From Thalassovita litoralis (GTDB taxonomy: Bacteria; Pseudomonadota; Alphaproteobacteria; Rhodobacterales; Rhodobacteraceae): a stretch of 40,142 nucleotides of DNA. A program made the translations under genes and the position numbers. The notes under the pieces were generated by a model, which was not told the origin of the DNA, did no database searches, and saw only the letters and a list, made by a program, of their open reading frames with translations. Location: the NCBI RefSeq assembly GCF_900182725.1, contig NZ_FXTO01000030.1, positions 1 to 40,142 of the forward strand. Direction: 5' to 3'. Shown here piece by piece: positions 20,805 to 38,203 of this stretch; position 1 is the first letter of the stretch, and each line of letters starts with the position of its first letter.

Positions 20805-21089
20805 TCCGGCCTCTTTCTGGATTCGTCCCCGAGAATAGGAGACGGCCTGATAGGTTGGAAGGTGAAAAAAAGCACACAAAAGCCAAAAAATAGGCATGGG
20901 GTTCTGTGCTTAAAATTTAGCCATTTTCAAAAAATAATAGTATTATCAATATATTATACTTTCAGAATCTGTACTCACGCCCCCTATTTAACGGTTTTTT
21001 TGATGCAAACATCATTTTAATCTTTACAGGCCTGTTGAAACCGATGTTTGTATTAAGAAAATCATTAATGCCAATTCGGGGGAAATTCA
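20805..21089. promoter_or_regulatory. AT-rich divergent regulatory region with several palindromes
   Basis: The 285 bases between the double-HTH regulator and the ABC operon hold several symmetrical elements. They are ATAATA-G-TATTAT (20934-20946), TGATG-CAAA-CATCA (21001-21014), the perfect palindrome ACAGGCCTGT (21026-21035), and CAAACATC (21006-21013) inverted against GATGTTTG (21043-21050). The region is far more AT-rich than its neighbours. It must carry the promoters of both directions, and multiple operator half-sites fit a regulator with two DNA-binding domains. The assignment is inference. Confidence 0.55.
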
Positions 21090-23023: not shown

Positions 23024-23026
23024 GCC

Positions 23027-23869: not shown

Positions 23870-24597
23870 TGATTGCTCTTGTCACAGGGGCCGGTTCGGG
23901 TATCGGGGCGGCGATTGCCAAACGTCTTGCCACCGACGGGCATACGGTTGCCGTTAACGATCTTTCCCCGGATGCGGCGAAGGCCACGGTCGAAAGCATC
24001 CGCGCTGTGGGCGGCACCGCCGCAGCCTATGCCGCAGATGTCAGCGACGAGGGCGCTGTAAACGCGATGGTCGGCCAGATCACCGAAGAGTTCGGCGCGC
24101 CGGATATTTTGGTCAACAATGCGGGCTTTGGTCATCAGGCGCTGTTTACCGAGATCGAACCGGACATGTTCGATAAGATTTTCGCGGTCCACGTCCGTGG
24201 GAATTATCTGTGCACGCGTGCCTGCATTCCGGCGATGCTTGAAAAAGGCGTTGGTCACATCGTCAATATCGCCTCTCAGCTTGGTCAGATCGGCGGGGTC
24301 GAACTGACCCACTATGCCGGGGCCAAAGCGGCGGTGATCGGGATGACCAAGTCCCTTGCACGCGAGGTTTCGGCCAAGGGTGTGCGCGTCAACGCTGTCG
24401 CGCCGGGGCCGGTGAATACACCGCTGGTCGAGGCGCTTTCGGAAGATTGGAAAGCCGCGAAACGGGCCGAGCTTCCGCTTGGTCGGTTCGGACAGCCAGC
24501 CGAGGTCGCCGGTGTGGTGTCCTTCTTGGTGTCGGACGATGCCGCGTTGTTCGCCGGGCAAACGCTGGGGCCGAATTCTGGCGACGTAATGCTGTGA
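23869..24597 (+). CDS. Short-chain dehydrogenase 1
   Basis: A 242-residue classical SDR. The cofactor motif TGAGSGIG (6-13), Asp31 at the end of the second strand (favours NAD), NNAG (83-86), catalytic Ser136, Tyr149 and Lys153 (YAGAK) are all present. It would oxidise a hydroxyl of the imported compound or reduce a carbonyl. The 1-base overlap with permease 2 puts it firmly in the importer operon. The C-terminus GQTLGPNSGDVM is of the GQTLGPNGG-type found in 2-hydroxycyclohexane- and ketoacyl-reductase-like members. Its substrate is unknown. Confidence 0.9.
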   Translation: MIALVTGAGSGIGAAIAKRLATDGHTVAVNDLSPDAAKATVESIRAVGGTAAAYAADVSDEGAVNAMVGQITEEFGAPDILVNNAGFGHQALFTEIEPDMFDKIFAVHVRGNYLCTRACIPAMLEKGVGHIVNIASQLGQIGGVELTHYAGAKAAVIGMTKSLAREVSAKGVRVNAVAPGPVNTPLVEALSEDWKAAKRAELPLGRFGQPAEVAGVVSFLVSDDAALFAGQTLGPNSGDVML

Positions 24598-24621
24598 TTT
24601 CAGAAAACGGAAGCAATTCAA

Positions 24622-25374
24622 ATGGATAAACGTATCGTACTTATCACTGGCGCAGGGATTGGCATCGGTCGGGCCTCTGCTCTGACTTTTGGCGCCCAAG
24701 GCGACCACGTTATCGTCACCGATGTGCTTGAGGAAAAGGGCAAAGCGGTCGTCGCGGAAATCGTAGCCGCAGGCGGCAGTGCCGAGTTTCATCTGCTTGA
24801 TGTGCGATCAACCAAGGCCGCAGATGCGCTGGTGCATGATCTGAACACCCGGTTTGGCGGCGTTGATGTGATCGTTGCCAATGCCGGGATCGCGCTGCGC
24901 GTGCCGATGTCCGAGATGACCGACGAAACATGGCACGAAACGCTGGATGTCGATCTGTACGGCATGTTGCGCGTTATTCGCCCGGCGTTGCCCGCGATGA
25001 AACAAGGTGCATCAATCATCTGCCTGTCGTCGATCATGGGAACAAATTACGGGTGGGATGAACATGTCCATTATTCCACTGCAAAATCCGGTGTCATTGG
25101 CATGGTGCGCGGATTGGCCGTGGAATACGCCGCCAAGGGCATTCGCGTGAATGGCGTTGCGCCGGGTTATATTCGCACCGCGCAGCTTTTGAATCCGGGC
25201 CACAGCCTTGGGCCTGACGCTGCCGATATCGCCTCTCCGTATATCCCGATGAAACGTCTGGGCGAACCCAGCGAAATCGCAAATGTCATCAAGTTTCTTG
25301 CGTCTTCCGATGCGTCCTACCTCACCGGGCAGGTCGTGACTGTGGATGGGGGGCTTACCCCCGGCCGCTACTGA
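24622..25374 (+). CDS. Short-chain dehydrogenase 2
   Basis: A 250-residue classical SDR, distinct from its neighbour. TGAGIGIG (9-16), Asp34 (NAD preference), NAG (87-89) with an Ala replacing the first Asn (ANAG), catalytic Ser137, Tyr151 and Lys155 (YSTAK), and the C-terminal VVTVDGGLT signature are visible. It follows SDR 1 after 24 bases. Two SDRs in tandem inside an importer operon suggest consecutive or stereospecific redox steps on the same carbon skeleton. Confidence 0.9.
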   Translation: MDKRIVLITGAGIGIGRASALTFGAQGDHVIVTDVLEEKGKAVVAEIVAAGGSAEFHLLDVRSTKAADALVHDLNTRFGGVDVIVANAGIALRVPMSEMTDETWHETLDVDLYGMLRVIRPALPAMKQGASIICLSSIMGTNYGWDEHVHYSTAKSGVIGMVRGLAVEYAAKGIRVNGVAPGYIRTAQLLNPGHSLGPDAADIASPYIPMKRLGEPSEIANVIKFLASSDASYLTGQVVTVDGGLTPGRY

Positions 25375-25449
25375 GGGCGTGACAAAAGGGGCGATCAGCG
25401 CCCGCCTTCAAACGTTCAATGTCAACACTTATCAACAGGGAAAGATACT

Positions 25450-26670
25450 ATGACTTTGAAATCCAACCGTCGAACCTTCCTGAAATACGGGGCTGCCGCT
25501 GGTGCTGCGGCTCTTGGGGCGGGCCTGCATCCGTGGTCGCGTGCGGCCTATGCCGCTAATTTGGGTGGTCAGGAATTGCGCACCACCGGGTTGTCGACCA
25601 CCGTGCAAGACCGCATCCTCGAGATGTTCAAGGCCGCCACTGGCGTCGGCTCTACCTCTGGTACGCCGTCCACCTACCCGGATGCTCAGACCAAAATCCT
25701 CTCTGGCTCCGCGGATTACGATTGCTGGGAAATCATCGGCGAACGCCTTCCGGCGCTGATTGCCACCGACAATGTCGAACCCATTCCGGCGGCTGATCTG
25801 CCGAACTGGGCCTCGATCCGGGACACCTTCACCACCACCGATCCGAAATGGGATGCACGTGCGCAAATCTCCGGCCAGATCTGGGCGGACGAAGCCAAAA
25901 CCCAGCTTTATATGGTGCCGGCGGTCTACAACTTCGACTCCATCGGCTATAATCCCGAGGTTCTCTCGGACGAGGAAGCCAACACCTGGACCGCGCTGTT
26001 CGACGAGAAATGGAAGGGCAAATCCGGTCTGAACGTCGACCCGCTCATTGCCATCGGTCAAGCCATCCTTGCCATGAATTCGCTTGGCCTGCTGGAAGCC
26101 AAGAACCCCGGCAACCCGACGATGGACGAGATTGACGAAGCCGCGAAATTCCTGATTTCGAAGAAGAAGTCGGGTCAGTTCCGTGCGCTCTGGGGTGATT
26201 TCGGTGAACTGGTGAACCTGATGGCGTCGGGCGAGATGGTCGTCTGCGATGCGTGGCAGCCTGCTGTCATGGCCGTCAAGGCACAGGGCAAGCCCGCCAA
26301 ATACGCGACGCCGAAAGAAGGCACGCGCGGCTGGGCGATTGGGCCGTCGATGCTCAAAGGTACGCCGAACCGCGAAGCTGTCATCGCCTATGCTAACTTC
26401 TGGTTGTCGGGTGGGCCGGGCATCGCTGTGACGGAACAGGGCTATTACTCGCCCTCGACCAACATCAAAGAAGCGATGGATCCCGATGCCTATGCCTTCT
26501 GGTACGAAGGTGCGCCGTGGAAAGGCGCAGCCGAACGGGGCATCAATCCCGGCGACCTGCGTGATGGCGGTTCGCTTGAAGAGCGCGCGTCGAACGTCGC
26601 TTACTGGCACCAGTGGCCGGATGAGTACGACCACCTGATCATGCGCTGGGATGAGTTCCTGAACGCCTGA
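25450..26670 (+). CDS. PotD-like ABC solute-binding protein, Tat-exported
   Basis: A 406-residue periplasmic receptor of the spermidine/putrescine-type (family 1/PotD) fold. The N-terminus has a twin-arginine signal, NRRTFLKYGAAAGAAALG, with cleavage near residue 35 (AYA-A). The mature part contains VPAVYNFDSIGYNPE, the hinge-region GWAIGPSML stretch and a C-terminal WYEGAPW segment. Tat export suggests folding before export or metal avoidance. It serves the ABC permeases encoded upstream. A hairpin directly behind the gene probably raises its mRNA level relative to the membrane parts. The ligand is not readable from sequence. Confidence 0.9.
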   Translation: MTLKSNRRTFLKYGAAAGAAALGAGLHPWSRAAYAANLGGQELRTTGLSTTVQDRILEMFKAATGVGSTSGTPSTYPDAQTKILSGSADYDCWEIIGERLPALIATDNVEPIPAADLPNWASIRDTFTTTDPKWDARAQISGQIWADEAKTQLYMVPAVYNFDSIGYNPEVLSDEEANTWTALFDEKWKGKSGLNVDPLIAIGQAILAMNSLGLLEAKNPGNPTMDEIDEAAKFLISKKKSGQFRALWGDFGELVNLMASGEMVVCDAWQPAVMAVKAQGKPAKYATPKEGTRGWAIGPSMLKGTPNREAVIAYANFWLSGGPGIAVTEQGYYSPSTNIKEAMDPDAYAFWYEGAPWKGAAERGINPGDLRDGGSLEERASNVAYWHQWPDEYDHLIMRWDEFLNA

Positions 26671-26678
26671 TCCATTGA

Positions 26679-26714
26679 GGCGGGCGGTCCTTAGCCTCTT
26701 TCGGGCCGCCCGCC
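26679..26714 (+). other. Intercistronic hairpin behind the binding-protein gene
   Basis: A perfect 9-bp stem (GGCGGGCGG/CCGCCCGCC), extendable with one mismatch, starts nine bases after the binding-protein stop. No T run follows, and the operon clearly continues, so it is likely a 3' stabiliser or partial terminator. Confidence 0.6.
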
Positions 26715-26749
26715 CTTACCTGACGCACCAACTATGAAAGCTTTTCGTC

Positions 26750-27817
26750 ATGGTTCACGACCTCGAGCTGATCTCTGTCGGCAAAACCTATCCTGATGGC
26801 ACTGTGGCTGTCTCGGATTTTGACCTGAAAGTGGAGAAGGGTGAATTCGTTGCCTTTCTTGGACCGAGCGGTTGCGGAAAATCCACGACACTGCGGATGA
26901 TCGCAGGCTTTGAAGATATCACCAATGGCGAGGTCATGATGATGGGGCGCAATGTGACCCACGTCCCGCCTGAAAAGCGGCCGACCTCGATGATCTTCCA
27001 GAACTATGCGCTTTTCCCGCATATGTCGGTGCGTGAAAACGTGGCCTTTGGGCTGGATGTCAAAGGAATGCCAAAGGCCGAGCGGGACACCAAGGTGGAC
27101 CGTATCCTTGACATGTTCGATCTGGAGCAATTCGCGGATCGTAAGGCCGACAAGCTGTCGGGTGGTCAGCGCCAGCGGATTGCCCTTGCGCGGGGTTTGG
27201 TTGTCGAACCGGAAATCCTGTTGCTGGACGAACCGCTTGGGGCATTGGATGCCAACCTGCGCCGCATCATTCAGAACGAGCTGAAGTTATTGCAACGCGA
27301 ACTGGGTATTACCTTTATTTTCGTGACCCACGCCCAATCCGAAGCCCTTGGCCTGTCGGATCGGGTGGTCGTCATGTCGAACGGTGTCGTCGAGCAAATT
27401 TCCCCACCGCGTGAACTGTATCGCCGTCCGAAGACCCCCTTTGTTGCGGATTTTATCGGATCGAACACGGTGTTCGAGGGTAGTCCAAAAGGCGCGGCTG
27501 GCAACGGTTTTGGGCGGATCGAAACGCTGTTCGGCTTGATCGAAGGGGTCGGGCAGGGCAACGAAACCCTTGCGGTCGTCCCCGCCGAAGCATTCCGCAT
27601 CACGCCGCTTGATACGCCGGGCGAAGTCCGGATCGAAGGCACCCTGTCCGAGCGCCAGCTTGTAGGCGCGGTCGGCCATCTCAAGGTGCGCCTGTCCGAT
27701 TCACGCGAAGTCGCGATCGAGGTGAGCGCAGACCGCCCCGATGTTCGCGCCCTTACGCTTGGCGCCCCGGTCACGCTTGGGATCGACCCGGCGGCCATCA
27801 CTCTTATTCACGCTTAA
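26750..27817 (+). CDS. ABC importer ATPase 2 (PotA-like), canonical
   Basis: A 355-residue ATPase with every motif intact: Walker [10 protein letters not shown] (38-46), Q-loop [12 protein letters not shown], signature SGGQR (137-141), Walker B ILLLDEP (156-162), and H-loop FVTHAQSEA with His194. The C-terminal TOBE-like regulatory domain spans about 240-355. It aligns with the ATPase encoded at 21090 without gaps in this numbering up to the H-loop, and differs at the crucial His. Two ATPases plus two permeases make a complete four-domain importer. It lies 79 bases after the binding-protein gene, with a hairpin in the gap. Confidence 0.92.
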
Positions 27818-27840: not shown

Positions 27841-28719
27841 ATGGCAAAAGAAATTCTTGTCGGATTCGGTGTCGATGTCGACGCCGTGGCAGGCTGGCTC
27901 GGCTCTTATGGTGGCGAGGACAGCCCCGACGATATTTCCCGCGGGATGTTCGCGGGCGAGGTCGGTTCGATGCGTCTGCTTGATCTGTTCGACAAGCTGG
28001 GTATCAAGACGACCTGGTTCATTCCCGGCCACTCTGTGGAAACTTTCCCGACACAGATGAAAGAGGTCGCAAATCGCGGTCACGAGATCGGCATTCACGG
28101 CTACAGCCACGAGAACCCGATCGCCATGACACGCGAGCAGGAGACCGCCGTACTCGACAAAAGCATCGAACTGATCACCGAACTCTCGGGCAAGCGCCCG
28201 ACCGGCTACGTGGCGCCTTGGTGGGAATTCTCGAATGTCACCAACGAACTGCTTCTGGAGCGCGGGATCAAGTACGACCACTCTTTGATGCATAACGATT
28301 TTTCGCCCTACCGGGTTCGCGTGGGCGACAAATGGACAAAGATCGACTACACGGCCCAGCCCGAGGACTGGATGAAACCGCTGGAGCGTGGCGAAGAAAC
28401 CGATCTGATCGAAATCCCGGCGAACTGGTATCTGGATGATCTGCCGCCGATGATGTTCATCAAAAAGTCCCCCAATTCGCATGGGTTCGTGAACCCGCGT
28501 GACATTGGCCAGATGTGGCAGGATCAGTTCGATTGGGTTTACGAAAACATGGATTATGCCGTGTTCCCGATCACCATCCACCCGGATGTTTCCGGTCGTC
28601 CTCAGGTTCTGATGATGCTGGAACGTTTGTTCAAGCACATGGCATCGCACGAGGGTGTGAAATTCGTCACCATGAATGAAATGGCGGACAACTTCGACAA
28701 GAAGTTCCCGCGCCCCTGA
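27841..28719 (+). CDS. NodB-fold deacetylase-family hydrolase, PuuE/cyclic-imidase type
   Basis: A 292-residue member of the polysaccharide-deacetylase superfamily, in the branch with PuuE allantoinase and bacterial cyclic imide hydrolase, which are about this long and hydrolyse cyclic amides rather than sugars. The metal site is visible: Asp12/Asp14 in FGVDVDAV, and His86 and His90 in [12 protein letters not shown]. The substrate-side motif [10 protein letters not shown] (about 203-212) also fits. There is no signal peptide, so it acts in the cytoplasm and peptidoglycan is not the likely target. AGGAG precedes the ATG. The importer genes, the downstream CobW metallochaperone and the amidase gene all fit a metal-dependent opening of an imported imide or cyclic ureide. 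Confidence 0.82.
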
Positions 28720-28737
28720 TAACGGGTTTACATGATT

Positions 28738-28768
28738 GGCGGACGGGGCGTTTGCTGTCCCGTCCGCC
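28738..28768 (+). other. Intercistronic hairpin
   Basis: A perfect 10-bp stem (GGCGGACGGG/CCCGTCCGCC) with an 11-base loop lies between the deacetylase-family gene and the small Cys-rich gene. It has no T run. It may separate two expression levels within the operon. Confidence 0.55.
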
Positions 28769-28795
28769 ATTGATACAGCAAGAAAGGAACGGGGC

Positions 28796-29128
28796 ATGTG
28801 CTCGCTCTGCGGTATTCTTGGGTGTGATGATCACTGGACCAACGCGATTGCCCGTCCGGGTGTCTATACCCACAATCACGATATGCAGTCGCGCCGAGCC
28901 GAGGGGATGCGGCGCATGAAAGCCGTTAATTCCATCCTGTCCTATCGACGCCTCAAACTTGATGTGTGGCAGGGGCGCTCGTATGTCGTCACGTCCCCGA
29001 CCGGGGCATCAAGCGTGTTCGAGGCGCTGTCCCACCTTTGGCCCGAGGCAGAGGCTCTTGCTGGTCGTGCCTTTGATCCGCTGGACGAGGGAATGATTTC
29101 CTGGATGGAAGAGAGGCAAGGCGCATGA
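28796..29128 (+). CDS. Small Cys/His protein coupled to a CobW GTPase
   Basis: A 110-residue protein of a family I cannot name. It starts MCSLCGILGCDDHW, placing Cys2, Cys5, Cys10 and His13 in a likely metal site, followed by VYTHNHDM with two further His. The rest is basic then acidic, without membrane segments. AAAGGA precedes ATG 28796. Its stop overlaps the CobW start (ATGA), so the two are made together. The N-terminus resembles the start of class II glutamine amidotransferases (MCGI), but the protein is far too short for that fold. A metal-handling partner or client of the GTPase is the best inference. Confidence 0.7.
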   Translation: MCSLCGILGCDDHWTNAIARPGVYTHNHDMQSRRAEGMRRMKAVNSILSYRRLKLDVWQGRSYVVTSPTGASSVFEALSHLWPEAEALAGRAFDPLDEGMISWMEERQGA

Positions 29129-30177
29129 ACCCGCTCTTGACACCTGTCATCCTGCTGACCGGCTTCCTTGGGTCGGGCAAGACGACGCTTTTGCAGCGAT
29201 TGCTGACGGACCCATCAATGGAGGGCGCGGCGGTTTTGATCAATGAATTCGGCGAGGTTGGGCTGGATCACCACTTGCTTGACCGGATCGACGACAATGT
29301 TGTTTTGCTGAAATCGGGATGTATCTGCTGCACCGTTCGCGGCGAGGTGGCTGACGCATTGTCGAATCTCGAAAGTCTCAGGGCGCGCGGCGAAGTCGCG
29401 TTTGATCGGGTGGTAATCGAAACCACGGGGCTGGCCGATCCCTATCCGGTGTTGCAAACACTGACCGCCCATCCTGTGTTGCGGTCACATTTCACCAATG
29501 GCGGCGTGCTTACCACGGTGGACGCGGTGAATGCGATCAATCAGGTGGCCCATCGCGCCGAAGCCGTGCGCCAGATTGCTGCTGCTGACCGGATCGTGTT
29601 GACGAAAACGGACCTTGTGGAGCCAAAGCAAGAACAGGCGCTGCGCGACCGTCTGGCACGGATCAACCCAGCGTCACGGATTGTCACAACCGGAGAGGAT
29701 GTTTCGTCGATCCTTGGCGGTTTTGAACCGATGTCCCTTGACCAAACCTTGACTTGGGAACCCCCCGCAGAGCATGAGTGCCATCCGGGGTGTGATCACG
29801 ACGCACACGGACATTCGCACCATGAACATCATCATGCCCACCATCATGATGATGCGCTGGGAGTTACTAGTTTTTCACTCGTTATAGAGGGGCCGATTGA
29901 TTGGACTATATTCGGAGCTTGGCTTACACTGCTGCTGTATCGGTATGGTGACAGGATTTTCAGGGTGAAAGGCATTTTGGCGCTCGACGGCGAGGATAAA
30001 CCTGTTGCAATTCATGGGGTTCAGCATTTGGTACACGCGCCGACCCATATGGAACACTGGCCAGAGGGGCCGCGCTCGTCCCGATTGGTGTTTATTCTGG
30101 AAGGATTGTCACCGGATTTGATCCGTCGGTCATTCTCGGCGTTTACCGGAGTTTCCCGCGTGAGGACTGCTGCGTGA
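29125..30177 (+). CDS. CobW/COG0523 metallochaperone GTPase
   Basis: A 350-residue G3E GTPase. It has the P-loop GFLGSGKT (13-20), the metal-binding GCICC motif (65-69) that links metal occupancy to GTP binding, ETTG near 99-102 and the guanine-recognition TKTD (160-163). A His-rich linker (about 217-241, with some 13 His plus two Cys) precedes the C-terminal CobW domain. The family delivers Zn, Co or similar metal to client enzymes. In this operon the likely client is the metal-dependent deacetylase-family hydrolase or the small Cys/His protein made with it. Its stop overlaps the next start (GTGA). Confidence 0.9.
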   Translation: MNPLLTPVILLTGFLGSGKTTLLQRLLTDPSMEGAAVLINEFGEVGLDHHLLDRIDDNVVLLKSGCICCTVRGEVADALSNLESLRARGEVAFDRVVIETTGLADPYPVLQTLTAHPVLRSHFTNGGVLTTVDAVNAINQVAHRAEAVRQIAAADRIVLTKTDLVEPKQEQALRDRLARINPASRIVTTGEDVSSILGGFEPMSLDQTLTWEPPAEHECHPGCDHDAHGHSHHEHHHAHHHDDALGVTSFSLVIEGPIDWTIFGAWLTLLLYRYGDRIFRVKGILALDGEDKPVAIHGVQHLVHAPTHMEHWPEGPRSSRLVFILEGLSPDLIRRSFSAFTGVSRVRTAA

Positions 30178-31370
30178 CCGATGAACCCATTCGAATCCTG
30201 ACGACAGAGATTCAGCCCTGGCGCCTTCTTCAGGCACGGGCCGAAGCTGATCTTGGGTTTTCCCTTGAATTCATAGAGTTGGATTTCAATAGCGCTCAGC
30301 GATTGGCCGCTCTTGATCCATCAAGCTACGACGTCTACGACCAATGTTTTCATAATCTGGATATTGTATGGCACTGGCGCGCGGTTCAGGCCATCGACAC
30401 ACGCAGAATCCAGCAGTGGGATAAACTGGACGAATTCCCGCGCCTTTGTGGTGTACAGGGGCGGCAGGGCATGGGGGATGTGCCTGCCTCCCGGCTTTTC
30501 GTTCAACAAGACATGACCCTGTCGGACAACCCAACCGGGCAGATTTCGATGTTGCCTACTTTCTACAACTTCGACAGTTTCGCGGTCGAAGCGTCGGCGC
30601 TGGATGTTGATACGACGGTGACAAGCTGGTCTGCTTTGGTTGATCCGGAATGGGCGGGACGCGTGGCGCTTGTGGATGAACCGGCGATTGGGTTGTTCGA
30701 TCTGGCGATGGCGCTTTCAGCGTCCGGGCAGATGCAATTCGAAGACATGGGCAACATGACGGTCGGGGAAATCGACGCGCTGGTCGCCCATGCGATGACA
30801 TTGATTCAAAACGGGCATTTCAGCCCTTTCTGGTTGCGTGCGGATGAACCCGCTGAACGGTTCCTGAACGGCGAACTAAGTCTTGCATCAATCTGGTCCC
30901 CAACGATTGTCGAGATGAAGCGGCTGGGGGTTAAAGTCCGCCAAGCCCGCCCAAAAGAAGGCTATCGTGCTTGGCATGGTGGGATGTGCCTGTCGCGAAA
31001 TCTATCGGGTCAAAAGCTGGATCGCGCCTATGAGTGGCTGAATTGGTATCTGGACGGGTACGCGGGTGCGTTGGTTGCGCGGCAGGGATATTACATGTCC
31101 GTGCCGGAACAGGTGCGGGCGCATCTGCCCAAGGCCGATTGGGATTATTGGTACGAGGGGCTTCCGGCGCAGCACGATCTTGACGATGTTGCAGGGCGAC
31201 CCGCCATCAAGGCTGGCGAAATCCGGTCTGGCGGCTCCAGACTGGACCGGGCTTCTCATATTGCGATCTGGAACTCTACGATGGACGAACACAACTATGT
31301 GGTCCGGCGGTGGAACGAACTGGTGTCGCTCGCCGCATCGAAAGGCCGCGCACAACGTCGCGCAAGCTAG
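30174..31370 (+). CDS. PotD-like binding protein without a signal peptide
   Basis: A 398-residue paralogue of the receptor encoded at 25450. Shared blocks are TFYNFDSFAVEA against VYNFDSIGYNPE, WYEGLPA against WYEGAPW, and the C-terminal GGSRLDRAS…RRWNEL against GGSLEERAS…MRWDEF. It begins with MTDEPIRILTTEIQPW, the first strand of the mature fold, and has no Sec, Tat or lipoprotein signal. The GTG start overlaps the CobW stop by four bases (GTGA), which fixes the start. It should therefore stay in the cytoplasm, where it could act as ligand sensor, carrier or an enzyme-like derivative of the binding fold. Export by an unrecognised route, or a start-site change in this strain, cannot be excluded. 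Confidence 0.85.
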   Translation: MTDEPIRILTTEIQPWRLLQARAEADLGFSLEFIELDFNSAQRLAALDPSSYDVYDQCFHNLDIVWHWRAVQAIDTRRIQQWDKLDEFPRLCGVQGRQGMGDVPASRLFVQQDMTLSDNPTGQISMLPTFYNFDSFAVEASALDVDTTVTSWSALVDPEWAGRVALVDEPAIGLFDLAMALSASGQMQFEDMGNMTVGEIDALVAHAMTLIQNGHFSPFWLRADEPAERFLNGELSLASIWSPTIVEMKRLGVKVRQARPKEGYRAWHGGMCLSRNLSGQKLDRAYEWLNWYLDGYAGALVARQGYYMSVPEQVRAHLPKADWDYWYEGLPAQHDLDDVAGRPAIKAGEIRSGGSRLDRASHIAIWNSTMDEHNYVVRRWNELVSLAASKGRAQRRAS

Positions 31371-31380: not shown

Positions 31381-32364
31381 ATGAAGAATGTGACATTGAT
31401 CGCCACAGGCGGAACCATTGCGTCTGCGCCCGATAAATCCGCCGGGGCGGTGAACGCGGGATTGAACGGCGAAAGCCTGCTGCAAAGCCTGCATGAACCG
31501 CTGGATGACATTGCGGTTTCGGTCGTCAATTTTGACGCTGCTGGCAGTTACGCGCTGGATCTGGAGACGATCTTCAATCTGTGTCGGCGCATTGACGACG
31601 TGCTGTCGGATGAAAATGTGGATGGGGTTGTTGTGACCCACGGGACCGACACGATGGAGGAAAGCGCCTTTCTGGCATGGTTGCTTGTCAAATCGGATAA
31701 GCCTGTCGTGTTTACCGGGGCGCAGCGCCATGCGGGTTTCCCTGACACGGACGGCCCCCGCAACATTCACGACGCAATTTGTGCCGCCGCCAGCCCCGAT
31801 CTGACCGGGGTAGGGGCCGTGATCCTTTTTGAAGGCGATATTCACGGTGCGCGTTATGTCACCAAGGCACATACTTCGCGGGTGGATGCGTTTCGGTCGG
31901 TCGGGCACGGAAAACTGGGCGAGGTGGATCATGGTCAGGTCCATATTTACACTCGGCCCGCACGGGCGCGGCCCGTGCGCACACCCGTCCGCCTTGATCC
32001 GAATGTGGAACTTGTTGCGCTTGGTCTGGGCAGTACGCCGATGCTGATGAAACTGGCCGCGGATCATGGTGCCTCGGGGATCGTGCTGTCGGCCTTTGGA
32101 CGCGGGAATGCACCCAAAGGGTTTGCACAGGCGACAGCCGATCTGGCGGGCAAAGGGGTTCCCGTCATCGTGGCATCACGGTGTTACGAGGGGCGCACCC
32201 GACCCGTTTATGGAAAGGACAGCGGCGGCGTGACCCTGATGGAAAGCGGGGCATTGTTTGCGGGGGATATTTCTGCCGTCAAAGCCCGTCTTTTGCTGTC
32301 TGCGCTTTTGGGCGCGGGGCTAAGCGGGGACGAATTGGCCAAGGCTGTCCAAAGCCTGCATTAG
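31381..32364 (+). CDS. L-asparaginase-family amidohydrolase
   Basis: A 327-residue bacterial-type asparaginase. The nucleophile Thr12 lies in ATGGTIAS (8-15). The second catalytic site is THGTDTMEE (86-94, Thr89/Asp90) with Lys162 in YVTKAHT. There is no signal peptide, so it is cytoplasmic. The family hydrolyses side-chain amides of Asn or Gln, and some members act on other amides. Here the neighbours suggest it may cut the linear half-amide produced by ring opening, releasing ammonia. The start follows the binding-protein gene by 10 bases, and the stop is only four bases from the convergent LysR stop, with no terminator between. Confidence 0.88.
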   Translation: MKNVTLIATGGTIASAPDKSAGAVNAGLNGESLLQSLHEPLDDIAVSVVNFDAAGSYALDLETIFNLCRRIDDVLSDENVDGVVVTHGTDTMEESAFLAWLLVKSDKPVVFTGAQRHAGFPDTDGPRNIHDAICAAASPDLTGVGAVILFEGDIHGARYVTKAHTSRVDAFRSVGHGKLGEVDHGQVHIYTRPARARPVRTPVRLDPNVELVALGLGSTPMLMKLAADHGASGIVLSAFGRGNAPKGFAQATADLAGKGVPVIVASRCYEGRTRPVYGKDSGGVTLMESGALFAGDISAVKARLLLSALLGAGLSGDELAKAVQSLH

Positions 32365-32368: not shown

Positions 32369-33277
32369 CTACAGACGGGTGGGCAGTTGCGGGGAATGAA
32401 AAGTGTCAATGAAGTAGTCGTGGAACAGGCGGACTGCTTCTGACATTTCCTGACCTTTGCGCCACGCTACGCCAACATCCATCGAGGGGATGTCAATGTC
32501 GGTTGTCACCGTGCTGATGCGCCGCCCTTCCAAAGACCAGGGGCGATACACCATGTCCGATAGGATCGTCACCCCTTGGCCATTCGCGACCAGTGACCGC
32601 ACCGCCTCGGTCGAGGAGGTCCGAAGCTTTACCTTGGGGATCAGGCCCGTTGGTCCCCAGTATTTGATCGAGGTGTTCGCGGCCTCATCCACGGTCAGCA
32701 TGATGTAATCTTCTTCCGCGATTTCTTTGAAGCTGGCGCGGCCGATATTCTGGAGGCGATGATTTTGCGGCACCCACAAACGGCGCTGGGACCGCAACAG
32801 CGTTTCTGTCTCCAGTTCTGGGTTCGAGGTGTTCGATGTCAAAAGAACTGCGATGTCGATGCGGTTTGTCATCAACCCCTCTTCGATGTTTTCGCGGTTC
32901 ATTTCCGTGATCTGAATGTTGAGATTGGGAAATCGGTGGGCCAAGCGATCAAGGTGGAATGGCAGGAAATACCCCAGCACCGTGTAGGTGGCCGCCACAT
33001 TGATCGTGGCTGCAATGTCGGTATGCCCTTGGCCAATCGTCCGGGCGTGTTCGACGCGTTCACTGATGTCGCGGGCTGTTTCCATCAATTCCCGGCCCGC
33101 AGGGGTGGGTTCCATTCCGTGTGCAGTGCGCACGAACAGCACCGTGTCCAGTTCTTTTTCAAGGTCACGGATGGCTGTCGTGACCGACGACTGGGAAATC
33201 GCCAGCTCGCCCGCCGCGCGACTGACCTGACCAAGTTCGGCTGTCGCGAGAAAGTACTTCAGTTGGCGCAAATTCAT
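32369..33277 (-). CDS. LysR-type regulator of the pxpA operon
   Basis: A 302-residue LysR regulator (MNLRQLKYFLATAELGQVSRAAG, helix-turn-helix about 18-37 with ISQSSVTTAI, effector domain from about 90). ATG 33277 is chosen over ATG 33286 because AAGGA lies eight bases upstream of the former and directly abuts the latter. It is divergent from pxpA across 264 bases with repeats, and convergent with the asparaginase gene. It is likely the activator of the pxpA-biotin-carboxylase operon. Confidence 0.88.
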   Translation of the reverse strand: MNLRQLKYFLATAELGQVSRAAGELAISQSSVTTAIRDLEKELDTVLFVRTAHGMEPTPAGRELMETARDISERVEHARTIGQGHTDIAATINVAATYTVLGYFLPFHLDRLAHRFPNLNIQITEMNRENIEEGLMTNRIDIAVLLTSNTSNPELETETLLRSQRRLWVPQNHRLQNIGRASFKEIAEEDYIMLTVDEAANTSIKYWGPTGLIPKVKLRTSSTEAVRSLVANGQGVTILSDMVYRPWSLEGRRISTVTTDIDIPSMDVGVAWRKGQEMSEAVRLFHDYFIDTFHSPQLPTRL

Positions 33278-33541
33278 CGCGGGCATCCTTCATGATCGGG
33301 CGTATGGGTGCTGATACATTATCAAAAAATCTGGGAATAGATATTAGATTATCGAAAAATCTGAATTCCAAAATGTCGCCGAAATCCGCTGAATCTGATG
33401 AATTATTGCGCATTATAAAAATGAAATGGGCGATTGCAGGAATGTATTATTGGATTTTCCGAAAATGAAATCGGAAAATTTAGAATTGTACATATCAAAT
33501 CCGCTGCCGGAAAGTTCGAGGGCAGAACAAAAGGATCTTCC
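33278..33541. promoter_or_regulatory. Divergent regulatory region with a 30-base-spaced direct repeat and a perfect inverted repeat
   Basis: Two 16-base direct repeats, ATTATC(A/G)AAAAATCTG, occupy 33318-33333 and 33348-33363. They differ at one base and start exactly 30 bases apart, about three helix turns, so they face the same side of DNA. Further on, ATTTTCCGA (33454-33462) and TCGGAAAAT (33471-33479) form a perfect 9-bp inverted repeat with an eight-base centre. The region is strongly AT-rich. These are the expected elements of a LysR-controlled divergent promoter; which factor binds which element is not known. Confidence 0.6.
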
Positions 33542-34321
33542 ATGCAAAAGACAATAGATTTGAATTGCGACATGGGTGAGAGCTTTGGGCATTGGACCAT
33601 CGGCGAGGCCAGTGACGAAGATCTTATGGCATTTATTTCTTCGGCGAACGTTGCCGCTGGGTTCCATGCAGGCGACCCCAATACGATCAACCGAACCGTG
33701 AAGCTGGTGCGAGACTATGGCGTGGGTCTGGGGGCGCATCCTGGGTATAACGACCTTCAGGGATTTGGCCGCCGGTTCATCAGTGCCTCGAACGAAGAGC
33801 TGGTTAATGACATCCTGTATCAGGTTGGCGCGGTGCGTGAATTCGGCAGATACCACGGGGTACGCCTTCAGCATGTAAAGCCGCATGGCGCTCTTTACAT
33901 GGAAGCGGCCCGCAATGAAGACCTTTCCCTTCACCTGATTGAAAGCCTGCGGGCCGGGGGTGGCGAGGTTCCGGTGATGTGTATGGGTGGGTCCGCCACC
34001 TACGAAGTCGGGCAGCGATTGGGGCACCCGATGGTGCGCGAATTCTATGCCGATCGTGATTACGGTGACAATGGTGCCATCGTTTTTACGCGTCGCGTCG
34101 GGCGGCCCGATCCGCAGGCCATCGCTGACAAATGCCTGCGTGCCTGTATCGAAGGCAAAGTCAAAACCGTTACCGGCCGAGAGGTCGACGTGGACTTCGA
34201 ATCCATCTGTTTCCATTCAGACACGCCCGGAGCGCTGGAGATAGCAAAGGCCATCCGGGAAACGCTATTGGCCGGGGGGGTGACGATTGCACCCGTTTCC
34301 ACGGTTCTGGGGCTTGGCTGA
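33542..34321 (+). CDS. pxpA: LamB/YcsF-family hydrolase, 5-oxoprolinase subunit A-like
   Basis: A 259-residue PxpA-like protein. Hallmarks are [11 protein letters not shown] (6-16), [12 protein letters not shown] (35-46), [15 protein letters not shown] (about 75-89) and HVKPHGALY. Two family positions are changed: the usual NxACGFHAGDP Cys is Ala39, and GAHPS reads GAHPG. PxpA with PxpB and PxpC forms the ATP-driven bacterial 5-oxoprolinase, which opens pyroglutamate to glutamate. Here biotin carboxylase genes lie between pxpA and pxpBC, so the true substrate may be a different lactam or cyclic amide. ATG 33542 is preceded by AAAAGGA; the longer open frame upstream is regulatory DNA. Confidence 0.85.
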
Positions 34322-34354
34322 GCTGCACATCAAAACCAACAACAGGGAAAAATC

Positions 34355-34588
34355 ATGACGGATATTCTATCTCCTCTGCCGGGTACATTTTATCAAAGGC
34401 CCGCACCCGAAGAACCGCCGTATCAAACCAAGGGTGCCAAGGTTGCGGTCGGCGACACGATCGGTCTGGTGGAGGTTATGAAAACCTTCATCCCGGTCAC
34501 GGCAGAAACTGAAGGCGTATTCGAGGGCTACGAGGCCGAAGATGCAAGCCCTGTGACGGCGGGTGCCGTTTTGGCAAAACTTGGTTAG
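34355..34588 (+). CDS. Minimal biotinyl carrier protein
   Basis: A 77-residue protein that is little more than a biotinyl domain. The biotin-accepting Lys43 sits in VEVMKTF, a variant of the usual EAMKM. Residues before it (LSPLPGTFYQRPAPEEPPY) form the first strands with the thumb-like Pro-rich loop of AccB-type domains, and GVFEGYEAEDASPVTAGAVLAKL completes the barrel around the second half. E. coli AccB is about 156 residues; the long linker and N-terminal region are missing here. It shuttles carboxybiotin between the biotin carboxylase encoded next and, by inference, the PxpB/PxpC carboxyltransferase-like pair. Spacing is 33 bases behind pxpA and four bases before the carboxylase. Confidence 0.9.
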   Translation: MTDILSPLPGTFYQRPAPEEPPYQTKGAKVAVGDTIGLVEVMKTFIPVTAETEGVFEGYEAEDASPVTAGAVLAKLG

Positions 34589-34592
34589 TGGC

Positions 34593-35969
34593 ATGAATAT
34601 CAAAAGATTATTCATCGCAAATCGCGGCGAGATTGCCGTCAGGATCGTGAAGGCGGCCAAGAAACTGGGCGTTCATACGATTCAGGGCCATTCCGAAGCG
34701 GACGCAGAGATGCTGGCGGTCAAGCTCGCTGACGAGTCCATCTGTATTGGCCCGGCCCCGTCAAAAGACAGCTATCTTAATATCTCCGCCATCATCGCCG
34801 CGGCCAAGGCCACGCAGGCCGATGCGATTCATCCCGGTTATGGCTTCTTATCAGAAAGCCCGGCTTTTGCGCGGGCGGTGGAACAGGCCGGTTTGATATT
34901 CATTGGACCCTCAGCAGATACGATTGAGAAAATGGGCGATAAAGTGTCCGCCCGTCTAGCCGCAGTGACGGCCGGTGTGCCGGTTGTTCCCGGATCGGAC
35001 GGGCGGATAGATGATTTGGACCATGCCATAGAGATTGCCGAAACAATCGGGTATCCCGTGATGATCAAGGCCGCCGCCGGTGGGGGCGGGCGCGGCATCC
35101 GCATCGCTAACACGAGGGCAGAGCTGAAAGAGCTTGCCCCGCAGGCAAAATCAGAAGCCGAAGCCGCCTTTGGCGATGGCGGGCTTTATATCGAGCGCGC
35201 GATTTTCGCACCGAGACATATCGAGGTGCAAATCCTTGGGGATGGGGAAACGGCCATACATTGTTACGAGCGGGAATGTTCGTTACAGCGCCGCCGTCAA
35301 AAAGTCTGGGAGGAGGCTGGCGCCGCCTGTCTGGATGATGAAACCTGTGCGGCGCTTTGTGCGTCAGCGGTCGCGCTTGCGAAATCGGTCTCTTATCGTG
35401 GTGCCGGAACGCTTGAATACCTCTATGATGAGAAGACCAAAGAGTTCTTCTTCATCGAAATGAACACCCGCATTCAAGTCGAACATCCTGTGACCGAAAT
35501 GATCACGGGGGTTGATCTGGTCGCGGAAATGATCCGGGTGTGCGGTGGCGAACGCCTGTCGGTGTCGCAAGACCAGATCAATAAATCCGGACATGCAATC
35601 GAGGTGCGGATCTGCGCCGAAGATCCGTTTGCGAATTTCATGCCTTGGCCGGGTGTTGTGGCGTCGTTGAAAGAACCCGAAGGCGAGGGTGTGCGCTTCG
35701 ATCATTTCCTGGCCGAAGGCTATCAGATTCCACCGTTCTATGACTCGCTTCTGGGCAAGGTCATTGTCCATGCAGCAACCCGTGACGCAGCTATCGACAA
35801 GCTGATTGTGGCCCTTGATGCGTTGTCTGTCGGGGGGACGAAAACGACTGCGCCGCTTCACAGGGCTTTGGCAATGGATGCTGATGTGCGCGCTGGTGCC
35901 TTTCATACGCAATGGCTGGAACAGTGGCTGGACGCCGGAAATTTGACCGAGAAAGGGGATGCCGCATGA
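34593..35969 (+). CDS. Biotin carboxylase subunit
   Basis: A 458-residue biotin carboxylase, close in length to E. coli AccC (449). Visible are the N-terminal FIANRGEIAVRI, PGYGFLSE (81-88), Lys117 in GDKVSA, the ATP-grasp loop GGGGRGIR (163-170), RECSLQRRRQKVWEEA (227-242), and the catalytic block EMNTRIQVEHPVTE (289-302) with the Glu, Asn and Arg residues that position bicarbonate. ATG 34593 is used; the earlier open codons overlap the carrier gene. It makes carboxybiotin from ATP and bicarbonate. Its stop overlaps the pxpB-like start (ATGA). No acyl-CoA carboxyltransferase gene is nearby, so the acceptor is probably not an acyl-CoA. Confidence 0.9.
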   Translation: MNIKRLFIANRGEIAVRIVKAAKKLGVHTIQGHSEADAEMLAVKLADESICIGPAPSKDSYLNISAIIAAAKATQADAIHPGYGFLSESPAFARAVEQAGLIFIGPSADTIEKMGDKVSARLAAVTAGVPVVPGSDGRIDDLDHAIEIAETIGYPVMIKAAAGGGGRGIRIANTRAELKELAPQAKSEAEAAFGDGGLYIERAIFAPRHIEVQILGDGETAIHCYERECSLQRRRQKVWEEAGAACLDDETCAALCASAVALAKSVSYRGAGTLEYLYDEKTKEFFFIEMNTRIQVEHPVTEMITGVDLVAEMIRVCGGERLSVSQDQINKSGHAIEVRICAEDPFANFMPWPGVVASLKEPEGEGVRFDHFLAEGYQIPPFYDSLLGKVIVHAATRDAAIDKLIVALDALSVGGTKTTAPLHRALAMDADVRAGAFHTQWLEQWLDAGNLTEKGDAA

Positions 35970-36841
35970 AAACGCGATATACGTATGGCGGAGACGAACA
36001 TGTTTACGTTGAGATCGACGATGAAATGTCTCTGGATGCTTTCTTCACCAGTCTGTCGCTGGCTGATCTTGTCCGCGCGGCGAATATTCCCGGTGTGACG
36101 GAAATCTGTCCGGCCAATGCGTCCTTCGAGGTCCGTTTTGATCCAGACATCATTGCTCCGGCGGATATGATGATGCGCATCAAGGAACTGGAAAGCGCGG
36201 CCCATGCGCAGGAAAAAAGGCTGAAAACGCGGATTATTGAAATTCCCGTTTATTATCAGGATCCGTGGACGCACGAGACACTCATGCGGTTCCGGGAACG
36301 GCATCAGGACCCCGCTGGCACGGACCTTGACTATGCTGCCAAGATTAACGGGTTTGACAGTGTCGAGGCCTTTATCGAGGCTCATCACAGTCAGCCGTGG
36401 TTCGTGTCTATGGTGGGGTTCGTGTCCGGGTTGCCGTTTCTGTATCAGCTGGTTGACCGCGACAAGCAGCTTCAGGTTCCCAAATATTTGCGGCCACGGA
36501 CGGATACACCCAAACTCACCGTGGGTTATGGGGGGTGCTTCTCGTGTATCTATTCGGTGCGCGGGGCGGGTGGATATCAGATGTTCGGCATCACACCCAT
36601 GCCGATTTATGACCCCGAGCAGAAGATCAGCTATCTTCAGGATTTCATGGTCTTTTTCAAACCGGGCGACATCGTGAAATGGAAACCCGTTGATCGTGCC
36701 GAATATGACCGGATCACTGCCGAGGTCGAGGCGGGCACCTACGTTCCGAAAATCGCCCAAGTCGACTTTGATCTAGACGCTTTTAATTCCGACATGGTTG
36801 GCTTCAACGCCACGCTAATGGAGGCCCTCAATGACGCTTGA
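35966..36841 (+). CDS. PxpB/KipI (AHS1) subunit with urea-carboxylase-type features
   Basis: A 291-residue AHS1-domain protein, about 70 residues longer than E. coli PxpB. The extra part lies ahead of and around KINGFDSVEAFIE. In my recollection of the families, this stretch, the CIYSVRGAGGYQMFG segment (about 200-214) and the late FFKPGDIVKWKPV end match the AHS1 half of urea carboxylase better than YbgJ/KipI. The core LPFLYQL and PRTDTPKLTVGYGG is common to both. Its start overlaps the biotin carboxylase stop, and its end overlaps the pxpC-like gene by 11 bases. I infer it is one half of a carboxyltransferase acting on a ring or amide nitrogen. An ordinary 5-oxoprolinase subunit is the alternative. 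Confidence 0.82.
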   Translation: MKTRYTYGGDEHVYVEIDDEMSLDAFFTSLSLADLVRAANIPGVTEICPANASFEVRFDPDIIAPADMMMRIKELESAAHAQEKRLKTRIIEIPVYYQDPWTHETLMRFRERHQDPAGTDLDYAAKINGFDSVEAFIEAHHSQPWFVSMVGFVSGLPFLYQLVDRDKQLQVPKYLRPRTDTPKLTVGYGGCFSCIYSVRGAGGYQMFGITPMPIYDPEQKISYLQDFMVFFKPGDIVKWKPVDRAEYDRITAEVEAGTYVPKIAQVDFDLDAFNSDMVGFNATLMEALNDA

Positions 36842-37802
36842 AATTTTGAAACCGGGGTTGGCGACGACGGTCCAGGATCTTGGGCGACCGGGTTACTTTC
36901 ATCTGGGGATTCCAGAAGGCGGAGCGATGGACCGCCTTGCCATGCGGGCGGCGAACCTTCTTGTTGGGAATGACGAAGGGGCGGCGGGGCTTGAAGCGGT
37001 GTTCATGGGGCCAGAGATCAAATTTGGCGCGGAGATGAGCGTGGCAGTAACGGGTGCTGAAATGCCGATGACGCTGGACGGGGAGCCACGCACCGCCTGG
37101 ACGGCCTTTACGGTAAAACCCGGACAGGTGTTGTCCTTTGGGTTCCTCAAAGAAGGGGCGCGTATCTATATTGCCGTGTCAGGTGGCATTGATACAAAGC
37201 CCGCACTTGGTTCGCGTTCAACCTATGCCATCGGGGCGCTTGGCGGTGTTGAAGGACGGGCCGTCATGGCGGGGGATGTTCTGCCGGTCGGTCAGGCGAT
37301 GATCGTCCCAGAAGGCCGCTGCGTTCCCGCACAACTGCGACGCCCGCTTGAATATCCGGTCAAGCTGCGCGTTCTGCCGGGTCTGTATTGGCATCGCTTA
37401 ACGGAAAAAAGCCAGACTGCCTTTTTCGAGGACGATTGGGTTGTCGCGCCAGAAGCCGACCGGATGGGGTATCGTTTCCGTGGCGGTCAGCCGATGGAGT
37501 TCGTTGACCGCCCTCAGCCGTTTGGCGCAGGCTCTGATCCGTCGAATATTGTCGATGGGTGCTATTCCTATGGTTCGATTCAGGTGCCGGGGGGATTGGA
37601 ACCGATTGTGCTGCACCGCGATGCGGTTTCGGGCGGTGGTTATTTCACTCTTGGCACCGTGATTTCGGCGGACATGGATTTGATCGGACAACTACAGCCG
37701 AATACGCAGATCAAATTCGTCGAAGTGACCATGGCAGAAGCGCTGGACGCGCGTGCCCACCGCAAGGAAATGCTTCACGAGATCAGGCGCGTCCTTTCCT
37801 GA
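36831..37802 (+). CDS. PxpC/KipA (AHS2) subunit
   Basis: A 323-residue AHS2-domain protein, usual length for PxpC/KipA (about 310-335). Signatures are PGLATTVQDLGRPGY (8-22), GIPEGGAMDRLAMRAANLLVG beginning near 26, YIAVSGGIDTKPALGSRST (about 112-130), DRMGYRFRG, and the C-terminal PNTQIKF. AHS1 plus AHS2 together form either the kinase-like part of 5-oxoprolinase or the carboxyltransferase domain of urea carboxylase. The biotin carboxylase and carrier genes just upstream favour the second. The gene overlaps its partner by 11 bases, and a long hairpin follows, ending the operon. Confidence 0.87.
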   Translation: MTLEILKPGLATTVQDLGRPGYFHLGIPEGGAMDRLAMRAANLLVGNDEGAAGLEAVFMGPEIKFGAEMSVAVTGAEMPMTLDGEPRTAWTAFTVKPGQVLSFGFLKEGARIYIAVSGGIDTKPALGSRSTYAIGALGGVEGRAVMAGDVLPVGQAMIVPEGRCVPAQLRRPLEYPVKLRVLPGLYWHRLTEKSQTAFFEDDWVVAPEADRMGYRFRGGQPMEFVDRPQPFGAGSDPSNIVDGCYSYGSIQVPGGLEPIVLHRDAVSGGGYFTLGTVISADMDLIGQLQPNTQIKFVEVTMAEALDARAHRKEMLHEIRRVLS

Positions 37803-37811
37803 CGCGCCCTA

Positions 37812-37850
37812 TGGGGTGACATTGCGACCATGCAAAGCCATGTCACCCCA
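37812..37850 (+). terminator. Probable terminator hairpin behind pxpC
   Basis: A perfect 11-bp stem, TGGGGTGACAT (37812-37822) with ATGTCACCCCA (37840-37850), and a 17-base loop start ten bases after the pxpC-like stop. There is no T run, so it may be Rho-assisted or a 3' end stabiliser. Confidence 0.5.
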
Positions 37851-37951
37851 GACCGCTGACAAAGTCACGACTGTTCTGCGCAGTATCAAAACGGTTGACA
37901 GCCGTGCGGGTTGGGACCGACACTTTACCTTTCGATGTAGGAGGAAATGTG

Positions 37952-38143: not shown

Positions 38144-38203
38144 AAGCACAGAAGGGGCCGATCAGGGGCGGCCTGTGTCGTGGCGGGTAACGCTTCTTGC
38201 AAT

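Follow-up and report, generated by a model that had tools for sequence, protein, structure and literature searches.

A candidate biotin-dependent lactam carboxylase-hydrolase encoded by a five-gene operon of Thalassovita litoralis

Introduction

What does an operon do that joins the ring-opening protein PxpA to the parts of a biotin-dependent carboxylase? The question is raised by five genes at positions 33542-37802 of a 40,142-nucleotide stretch of Thalassovita litoralis DNA (contig NZ_FXTO01000030.1; the whole stretch is referred to below as the window). They encode PxpA, a small biotin carboxyl carrier protein (BCCP), a biotin carboxylase (BC), and two proteins, AHS1 and AHS2, which are related both to the carboxyltransferase of urea carboxylase and to the PxpB and PxpC subunits of the prokaryotic 5-oxoprolinase PxpABC. 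With a probability that we put at roughly 0.55, these proteins together are a lactam carboxylase-hydrolase that depends on biotin. Lactams are amides of great stability, and such an enzyme, if real, would give bacteria a third route to their opening, in addition to phosphorylation by PxpABC and to the hydantoinase/caprolactamase family. It would also account for a set of genes, present in Alphaproteobacteria and haloarchaea, whose current annotations are acetyl-CoA carboxylase, allophanate hydrolase and 5-oxoprolinase, and could be a source of enzymes for lactam degradation or biosensing.

Architecture of the operon

All five genes are on the + strand and are tightly packed, as the first-pass annotation of this DNA had it. 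The first, pxpA (33542..34321), encodes a putative ring-opening hydrolase of the LamB/YcsF family (NF003814, 282.8 bits, cut-off 226; PF03746, 285.5 bits). It is followed by the gene for the 77-aa BCCP (34355..34588; NF005457, 98.9 bits, cut-off 87; PF00364), in which Lys43 of an EVMKT motif, as already read at that stage, is the predicted site of biotinylation, and by that for the 458-aa BC (34593..35969; NF009471, 703.7 bits, cut-off 686; NF006367, 658.1 bits, cut-off 597; PDB ID 2c00, 482 bits); BC and carrier are above the NCBIfam cut-offs of PRK12833 and PRK07051. AHS1 (35966..36841; PF02682, 139.9 bits) corresponds to carboxyltransferase subdomains C/D, with Lys173 at the position of Lys1605 in the Kluyveromyces lactis enzyme (alignment to PDB IDs 3va7 and 5i8i, residue comparison and tree), and AHS2 (36831..37802; PF02626, 292.5 bits; TIGR00724, 279.2 bits, cut-off 230.2) to subdomains A/B, with Gln where the K. 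lactis enzyme has Asn1330 in the residue comparison. The AHS1 start was set at 35966, where its homologues begin; a longer 309-aa reading frame from 35912 comes from a mechanical listing. The genes are separated by 33 bp and 4 bp and then overlap by 4 bp and 11 bp. The operon had been called overlapping; the overlap is therefore confined to its last three genes, BC, AHS1 and AHS2, while pxpA, BCCP and BC are spaced.

The family assignment of the carboxyltransferase pair required one correction. AHS1 had been described as PxpB/KipI-like, and its score against the urea carboxylase model, 116.9 bits, exceeds the 73.7 bits that it reaches against PxpB (cut-off 145.55); both scores are below the respective cut-offs. 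AHS2 falls far short of the PxpC equivalog (222.6 bits, cut-off 500). The separate genes do not reach the one-chain urea carboxylase cut-off of TIGR02712 (1303.85 bits) either, with 505.7 bits for BC, 116.9 for AHS1 and 234.3 for AHS2. The earlier statement that no allophanate hydrolase accompanies them held: there is none in the operon, and the best match in the whole genome is 204 bits, against a TIGR02713 cut-off of 511.

Conservation of the five-gene unit

A contig scan for related loci gave 575 confirmed stretches, of which the best 80 were analysed. AHS1, AHS2 and BC occur together in all 80, and BCCP and PxpA in 76; in the other four (L072, L088, L105 and L111) AHS1 lies at most 1.5 kb from a contig end. 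The same genes are carried by a Thalassovita aquimarina contig (L054). All five genes are also present on two haloarchaeal plasmids, in a different order and with BC on the opposite strand; on one of these, five extra genes are interspersed.

A survey of genomes for co-occurrence of the genes had been set beforehand, and was carried out with 385 genomes of the same class, counting AHS1 at an identity of at least 65%. AHS1 of this type is present in 20 genomes. A carrier above cut-off was found in the same 20, at 47-1485 bp from AHS1, and in three further genomes that lack AHS1. For BC, 19 of these 20 genomes have a match above cut-off, never more than 92 bp from AHS1, and no other genome has one. 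With such near-perfect co-occurrence the association of the five genes is not due to chance, and the set is a conserved unit. All 100 carriers found contain the biotin-carrier motif EVMK[TSN]. With its carrier lysine motif, its BC and a carboxyltransferase recognized by homology, the set is a predicted biotin-dependent carboxylase, and very probably acts as one.

A third sequence branch of the carboxyltransferase

For comparison, 198 proteins with a CT_C_D domain were collected: 35 in one chain with BC (the urea/guanidine type), 105 separate-chain proteins with Lys at the Lys1605 position, and 58 PxpB. They came from a search of 200 Pseudomonadota genomes (66 of which gave matches, at 91 places, to which the window and the ordinary pxpABC locus of the same genome were added), from the 80 contig loci, from relatives and from plasmid records. 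One plasmid match from Niallia (L023) turned out to be a one-chain protein of the urea carboxylase type. At least 50% identity to window AHS1 is shared by 104 of the 105 separate-chain Lys proteins, referred to here as the window type, and the maximum is 28.5% for the urea type and 32.1% for PxpB. In a tree built from 118 of these 198 proteins, by a quick method and with some long branches, the window type (25 of the 104; SH-aLRT 99), the urea type and PxpB form one clade each. By sequence, AHS1 is a third carboxyltransferase branch, apart from urea/guanidine carboxylase and PxpB.

Three active-site positions distinguish the branches. Lys1605 of the K. lactis enzyme has been described as the likely general base of urea carboxylase (PMC5770610), and positions Asp1584 and 1330 are given as a means of recognizing guanidine versus urea carboxylases (PMC11410670). 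The first position is Lys in 35/35 urea-type and 104/104 window-type proteins and Arg in 58/58 PxpB, where the window type was itself assigned first by this Lys and is independently borne out by identity and by the tree (25/104). The Asp1584 position is Asp in all 35 urea-type proteins, Phe in all 104 of the window type, and Phe in 56 of the 58 PxpB (one Ala, one Ser). The 1330 position is Asn (8) or Asp (27) in the urea type, Gln in 104/104 of the window type and Gln in 57/58 PxpB (one gap). The guanidine-carboxylase combination of Asp1584 and Asp1330 is thus replaced in the window by Phe and Gln. Since the base Lys of the carboxylases is combined with PxpBC-like Phe and Gln on the substrate side, the active site of the window type looks like a hybrid of urea carboxylase and PxpBC.

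A more divergent branch of Lys-type AHS1/AHS2 proteins was also seen, 32-38% identical and with the motif PKYNPPRTWT or a close variant (L261-L268, L270 and L271; genomes G402, G491, G293, G565 and G537). All 12 of its AHS1 proteins examined keep the Lys, and the five genomes have one to four AHS1 genes each. Four of the ten loci (L262, L263, L265 and L268) have BC together with a small carrier that contains EVMK[TS], and three of these four also have PxpA. Loci L261 and L264 contain tandem AHS1/AHS2 pairs; the tandem or multiple pairs of this branch possibly share one biotin carboxylase. In a Roseovarius metagenome-assembled genome (L090), a second PxpA and an AHS1/AHS2 pair of the divergent branch (3869-6467) lie upstream of an intact window-type set. 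The AHS1 of this second set (4867-5487) is 29% identical to the window protein and groups with the divergent Lys branch; the set looks broken, because its AHS1 reading frame is short and its AHS2 is in pieces.

Most PxpA proteins of Lys-type loci lack a conserved arginine

PxpA was compared in 100 proteins from Lys-type loci (99 of the window type and one from the second set of L090), 39 from ordinary pxpABC loci and 12 from Arg-type loci with a BC nearby. Twelve residues, Asn8, Asp10, Glu13, His42, His66, Gln94, Lys113, His115, Asp171, Tyr174, His225 and Asp227, are kept in all 100 Lys-type proteins, and are invariant in the 39 ordinary ones except for Asp171 (38/39); they are likely to be catalytic or structural. 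Arg183, on the other hand, is present in 39/39 ordinary and 12/12 BC-near Arg-type proteins and in only 6/100 Lys-type proteins. The window protein has Thr183 in its place. Arg183 is also absent from all four PxpA proteins of three divergent-branch loci and of genome G246. The Arg of PxpB at the Lys1605 position and Arg183 of PxpA may both serve the carboxylate of 5-oxoproline, and from the loss of both we infer that the substrate of the window type would have no carboxylate.

Gene neighbourhoods and the nature of the substrate

The neighbours of the 104 window-type loci were compared with those of 46 ordinary pxpB loci, 12 Arg-type loci with a BC nearby and 35 urea-type loci. Within 6 kb, the window-type loci have a TorT-type binding protein (48), GabT or GabD (12), BioY (12), HyuA (9) and a cyclic-imidase protein (6), none of which was detected within 6 kb of the three other groups; the queries were taken from Lys-type loci and applied with an identity floor of 40% (28% for BioY), so that remoter homologues near ordinary pxpB would be missed, and the loci are interrelated. 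Biotin uptake or synthesis genes are found within 6 kb of 13/104 window-type and 0/46 ordinary loci. An amidase query matched 2/104 window-type loci and also 2/46 controls. Over the whole available flank, which beyond 6 kb was covered for Lys-type loci only, the counts for the 104 loci are 50 for TorT, 13 for GabT or GabD, 15 for HyuA, 11 for the imidase and 14 for biotin uptake or synthesis. The TorT importer and a polyamine-type importer, present in the window, are alternatives: 77 loci have either, and one of these has both.

Representative GabT and succinate-semialdehyde dehydrogenase (SSADH) proteins score above their family cut-offs, and BioY was confirmed by Pfam for two representatives. 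HyuA and HyuB have caprolactamase as best match, yet remain below its cut-off. The locus of Rhizobium sp. CIAT894 carries annotated genes for SSADH, carbonic anhydrase, bioB, bioF, bioD and bioA, consecutive and in one direction; the annotated carbonic anhydrase (L043) gave no NCBIfam match at 1e-20. In loci with the TorT importer no imidase homologue was found at the 40% identity floor.

A lactam, a cyclic imide or a similar amide had been suggested as the substrate. The lactam is favoured by neighbouring genes for GABA (gamma-aminobutyric acid) transaminase/SSADH and for caprolactamase-like proteins, each of which occurs in a minority of loci. In the account of mammalian metabolism in PMC6517487, 2-pyrrolidinone and GABA are interconvertible, and 2-pyrrolidinone can also give rise to succinimide, which opens to succinamic acid. 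Because of these interconversions, the TorT subtype and the subtype with short-chain dehydrogenases/reductases (SDRs) and an imidase, to which the window belongs, would both fit small lactams and their oxidation products.

Proposed mechanism

From the genes, families, residue patterns and neighbourhoods described above, we infer biotinylation, carboxyl transfer, ring opening and a class of substrate as follows. BC would spend ATP and bicarbonate to carboxylate the biotin on Lys43 of the small carrier. AHS1 and AHS2 would be the carboxyltransferase and would transfer the carboxyl group to the nitrogen in a lactam ring; Lys173 of AHS1 would take the part that the general base plays in urea carboxylase. 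PxpA would then hydrolyse the activated ring amide, and the N-carboxy amino acid so produced would lose CO2 spontaneously. The net reaction would be lactam + ATP + H2O -> amino acid + ADP + Pi, while bicarbonate would be consumed and then re-formed. That PxpA opens the carboxylated ring is probable. The substrate would resemble 5-oxoproline minus its carboxylate, and the chances that it is a lactam without an alpha-carboxylate are about even. For the subtype with TorT and GabT/GabD the leading candidate would be 2-pyrrolidinone, giving GABA, and for the SDR/cyclic-imidase/asparaginase subtype of the window a related five- or six-membered lactam; 2-pyrrolidinone itself is a tentative assignment, to which we give about one chance in three. 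It is conceivable, and somewhat short of an even prospect, that transient N-carboxylation by a biotin enzyme, solely to activate an amide ring for hydrolysis and with bicarbonate acting catalytically, is a general strategy, one that the papers searched do not describe, and that the carboxyltransferase pair has radiated over different lactams.

Several observations weigh against this proposal. GabT or GabD flanks only 13/104 loci over the whole flank, all of the TorT subtype. In the window genome no GABA transaminase is above the family cut-off (best match 205 bits, cut-off 506.65), so that GABA as the product in this organism is unsupported. Genome G246 is the one exception among the 20 genomes with AHS1: it shows no BC above threshold, and on its 4.7-kb contig, which encodes PxpA, carrier, AHS1 and AHS2, none lies between carrier and AHS1. 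An AlphaFold model of AHS1 had a pLDDT of 58 (its alignment comprised close relatives only) and was too poor for a fold search. Finally, BC is found within 9 kb of 12/58 Arg-type PxpB loci, eight of the 12 with fused PxpBC; the Lys/Arg difference alone is therefore no mark of biotin dependence. Its use as a simple marker was rejected on this ground and on that of PDB entry 9yx5, in which an Arg-type AHS1 accompanies an AccA3-type chain (see below).

Alternative explanations

The same chemistry could be applied to 5-oxoproline itself, which would make the set a biotin-dependent 5-oxoprolinase. This is unlikely, even though Phe and Gln at both AHS1/AHS2 substrate positions are PxpBC-like. Of three annotated operons in which the ordinary PxpB lineage is linked to biotin genes, all of them Arg-type, two have an NRAMP transporter and a 'putative hydro-lyase' beside pxpA, which were not seen in the third; 5-oxoproline use by Corynebacterium glutamicum is reported to need the NRAMP-like transporter PxpT (PMC13274462). 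These genes would fit a 5-oxoproline substrate, but neither is listed in the Lys-type plasmid regions examined. Moreover, the window genome also has an ordinary pxpABC, on contig C42 beside a TRAP transporter gene, as ordinary pxpB is kept in three of the six genomes with window-type AHS1 in the phylum sample (the window genome and two others), and the window has neither of the two arginines that may bind the 5-oxoproline carboxylate.

A cyclic imide or ureide such as succinimide, a hydantoin or a dihydropyrimidine is also an unlikely substrate, and slightly more so. It would suit the cyclic-imidase-family protein, SDRs and asparaginase/amidase of the window cassette, as well as the dihydropyrimidinase and PuuE allantoinase genes some 25 kb further along a Rhizobium johnstonii plasmid. 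The cassette, however, has its own imidase-type hydrolase, and on chemical grounds imides should open without ATP-driven activation, for which reasons the imide part of the earlier suggestion is less supported than the lactam; the TorT-importer loci, which showed no imidase homologue at the 40% identity floor, have the same five genes. The set might instead be an analogue of urea amidolyase, in which the carboxylase acts on a linear amide or on a compound resembling urea and PxpA is a deamidase. AHS1 does score nearer to urea carboxylase than to PxpB and shares its catalytic Lys, but both urea/guanidine specificity positions differ in 104/104 window-type members, no allophanate hydrolase is above cut-off in the genome, and the known members of the PxpA family open a ring; this reading is improbable. 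A urea or guanidine carboxylase proper was rejected on the two specificity positions and the missing allophanate hydrolase.

It is very improbable that the operon performs ordinary PxpABC chemistry, by ATP-dependent phosphorylation, with BC and BCCP as chance neighbours belonging to another carboxylase. NCBIfam labels both genes acetyl-CoA carboxylase subunits, and an acyl-CoA carboxyltransferase encoded elsewhere had been named as a possible partner. The near-strict co-occurrence, the adjacency and the overlapping genes speak against it, as do the biotin uptake or synthesis genes near 13/104 loci. The AccC model has 14 matches in the genome, some of them pieces or one-chain enzymes, and a single one above cut-off, on contig C43, where it adjoins a carrier of canonical length and represents the canonical accBC. 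Among ten genes scanned around the operon (30174 to 38988) there is no AccA/AccD-type, acyl-CoA carboxyltransferase. Because the co-occurrence is with AHS1 and the canonical accBC is at C43, the reading as acetyl-CoA carboxylase parts was rejected.

Comparison with known systems

Urea/guanidine carboxylase (TIGR02712; K. lactis urea amidolyase, 3va7 and 5i8i) shares with the window the logic of BC, carboxyltransferase (A/B, C/D) and BCCP and the Lys at the Lys1605 position. The window differs in having four separate chains, Phe and Gln in place of Asp1584 and Asn/Asp1330, and PxpA in place of allophanate hydrolase. PxpABC shares PxpA, a PxpB/PxpC-related pair and PxpBC-like residues at the substrate positions; to these the window adds BC and BCCP, and it differs in the Lys that replaces the PxpB Arg at the Lys1605 position, in its separate clade, in scores below the PxpB and PxpC equivalog cut-offs and in PxpA Arg183, mostly lost in the window type. 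The caprolactamase CapAB of the hydantoinase/oxoprolinase family likewise opens a lactam with ATP, but its proteins are unrelated and use no biotin; a CapAB-related HyuA/HyuB pair neighbours up to 15/104 window-type loci. The fungal lower nicotinate pathway HxnW-HxnM-HxnN, as described in PMC9304392, has an SDR-like dehydrogenase, a cyclic imidase and an amidase, as in the outer cassette of the window. As far as it is described there, this pathway has neither a carboxylase nor PxpA, and the likeness is confined to the outer genes.

BC and BCCP beside PxpABC are already known as annotation and are not unique to the window type. A six-gene operon of Staphylococcus aureus is reported to include pxpB, pxpC, pxpA, accB and accC (PMC11315280), and plasmids of Klebsiella and Lactiplantibacillus plantarum carry PxpABC operons with BC/BCCP of the ordinary PxpB lineage. 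Such operons have the same BC parts, a PxpBC-type carboxyltransferase and PxpA, as in the window, and unlike the window they keep Arg at the Lys1605 position and PxpA Arg183 where the sequence was examined. Arg-type PxpABC operons with BC and carrier were seen at L127, L175, L179, L181, L189, L192, L196, L197, L201, L257 and L259; the carrier motif is within the BC chain in the first nine of these, BC and carrier are separate genes in L257, and L257 and L259 carry the NRAMP transporter and 'putative hydro-lyase'. In PDB entry 9yx5, chains V and W are listed as 'Allophanate hydrolase subunit 1' and '2' along with an AccA3-type biotin carboxylase chain, as known from the listing and our alignments, in which its AHS1 is Arg-type; a PxpA search of the PDB matched no chain of this entry. 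Split AHS genes were pointed out in 2011, in a passage that gives no functional data (PMC3199775). In open-licence PMC text, no description of a biotin-dependent lactam hydrolase or of this system was found. The first-pass view that the operon encodes a biotin-dependent system distinct from urea amidolyase and 5-oxoprolinase is thus borne out in sequence by clade, residues and co-occurrence; the pairing of PxpABC with BC/BCCP as such is shared with ordinary-lineage operons and, by its listing, with 9yx5.

The adjoining cassette and flanking genes

A LysR-type regulator (32369..33286, - strand; PF03466/PF00126) is divergent from pxpA, and a homologue is present in 63 of the 80 related loci. Beyond it, the five genes adjoin a cassette (19800-32364) in the order GntR, ABC, SDR, SDR, binding protein, ABC, imidase, hyp130, CobW, SBP2, asparaginase. 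It begins with a GntR-type regulator (19800..20897, - strand; PF00392/PF07729); the genes that follow are on the + strand. The polyamine-type ABC importer (21090..27817; profile matches and the same module in related loci) consists of an ATPase, two permeases, a binding protein (25450-26670) and a second ATPase (26750-27817), and within this stretch are two SDR dehydrogenases (23869-24597 and 24622-25374). The next gene (27841..28719) encodes a PuuE-like protein of the polysaccharide-deacetylase fold (PF01522) and of the cyclic-imidase branch, with 516 bits over 291 residues to PDB ID 3qbu. Among known structures, this one is named as the nearest homologue of HxnM, a cyclic imidase of fungi, and HxnM itself is given as 64.2% identical to a Pseudomonas putida cyclic imide hydrolase homologue (PMC9304392). 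The score supports homology to the HP0310/HxnM branch, and imide hydrolysis by the window protein is putative.

A conserved 130-aa protein (hyp130; 28736..29128), with no Pfam match, is also found in L024 and L025; it bears Cys/His motifs and sits between the imidase and CobW genes. The CobW-type GTPase (29125..30177; NF008578, 206.8 bits, below the cut-off of 361) suggests metal supply to a cassette enzyme. SBP2 (30174..31370; PF13343/PF13416) resembles a solute-binding protein and is conserved in the cassette; by eye its start has no obvious signal peptide, and it is perhaps not a transport protein. The cassette ends with an asparaginase-family protein (31381..32364, start approximate; PF00710/PF17763), whose position is occupied by an amidase in Rhizobium, Shinella and Agrobacterium.

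The same cassette lies beside the five genes on plasmids of R. johnstonii and Shinella (by sequence) and Agrobacterium tumefaciens (by annotation), in a different relative order and with the amidase replacing the asparaginase; the Shinella cassette is also adjoined by an L-2-hydroxyglutarate oxidase gene. The importer/SDR module adjoins the five genes in L019/L025, L020/L024 and L041 (the last by annotation) and partly in L026, L037 and L043, and parts of the cassette occur in G001, of the same genus, in Thioclava and in CIAT894. Downstream of AHS2 are an 82-aa Cys-rich reading frame (37895-38143), which matched no family, and the gene of a PPOX-type flavoprotein (38362-38991). Within 6 kb each of the two matches 1/104 loci, presumably that of the window. 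Further upstream, at 3572-17811, the window contains genes for aconitase-family and RraA-like proteins, TRAP and TctA/TctC transporters, an M20 peptidase, a glutamate-symporter-like protein and a CoA-transferase, which are perhaps another catabolic island.

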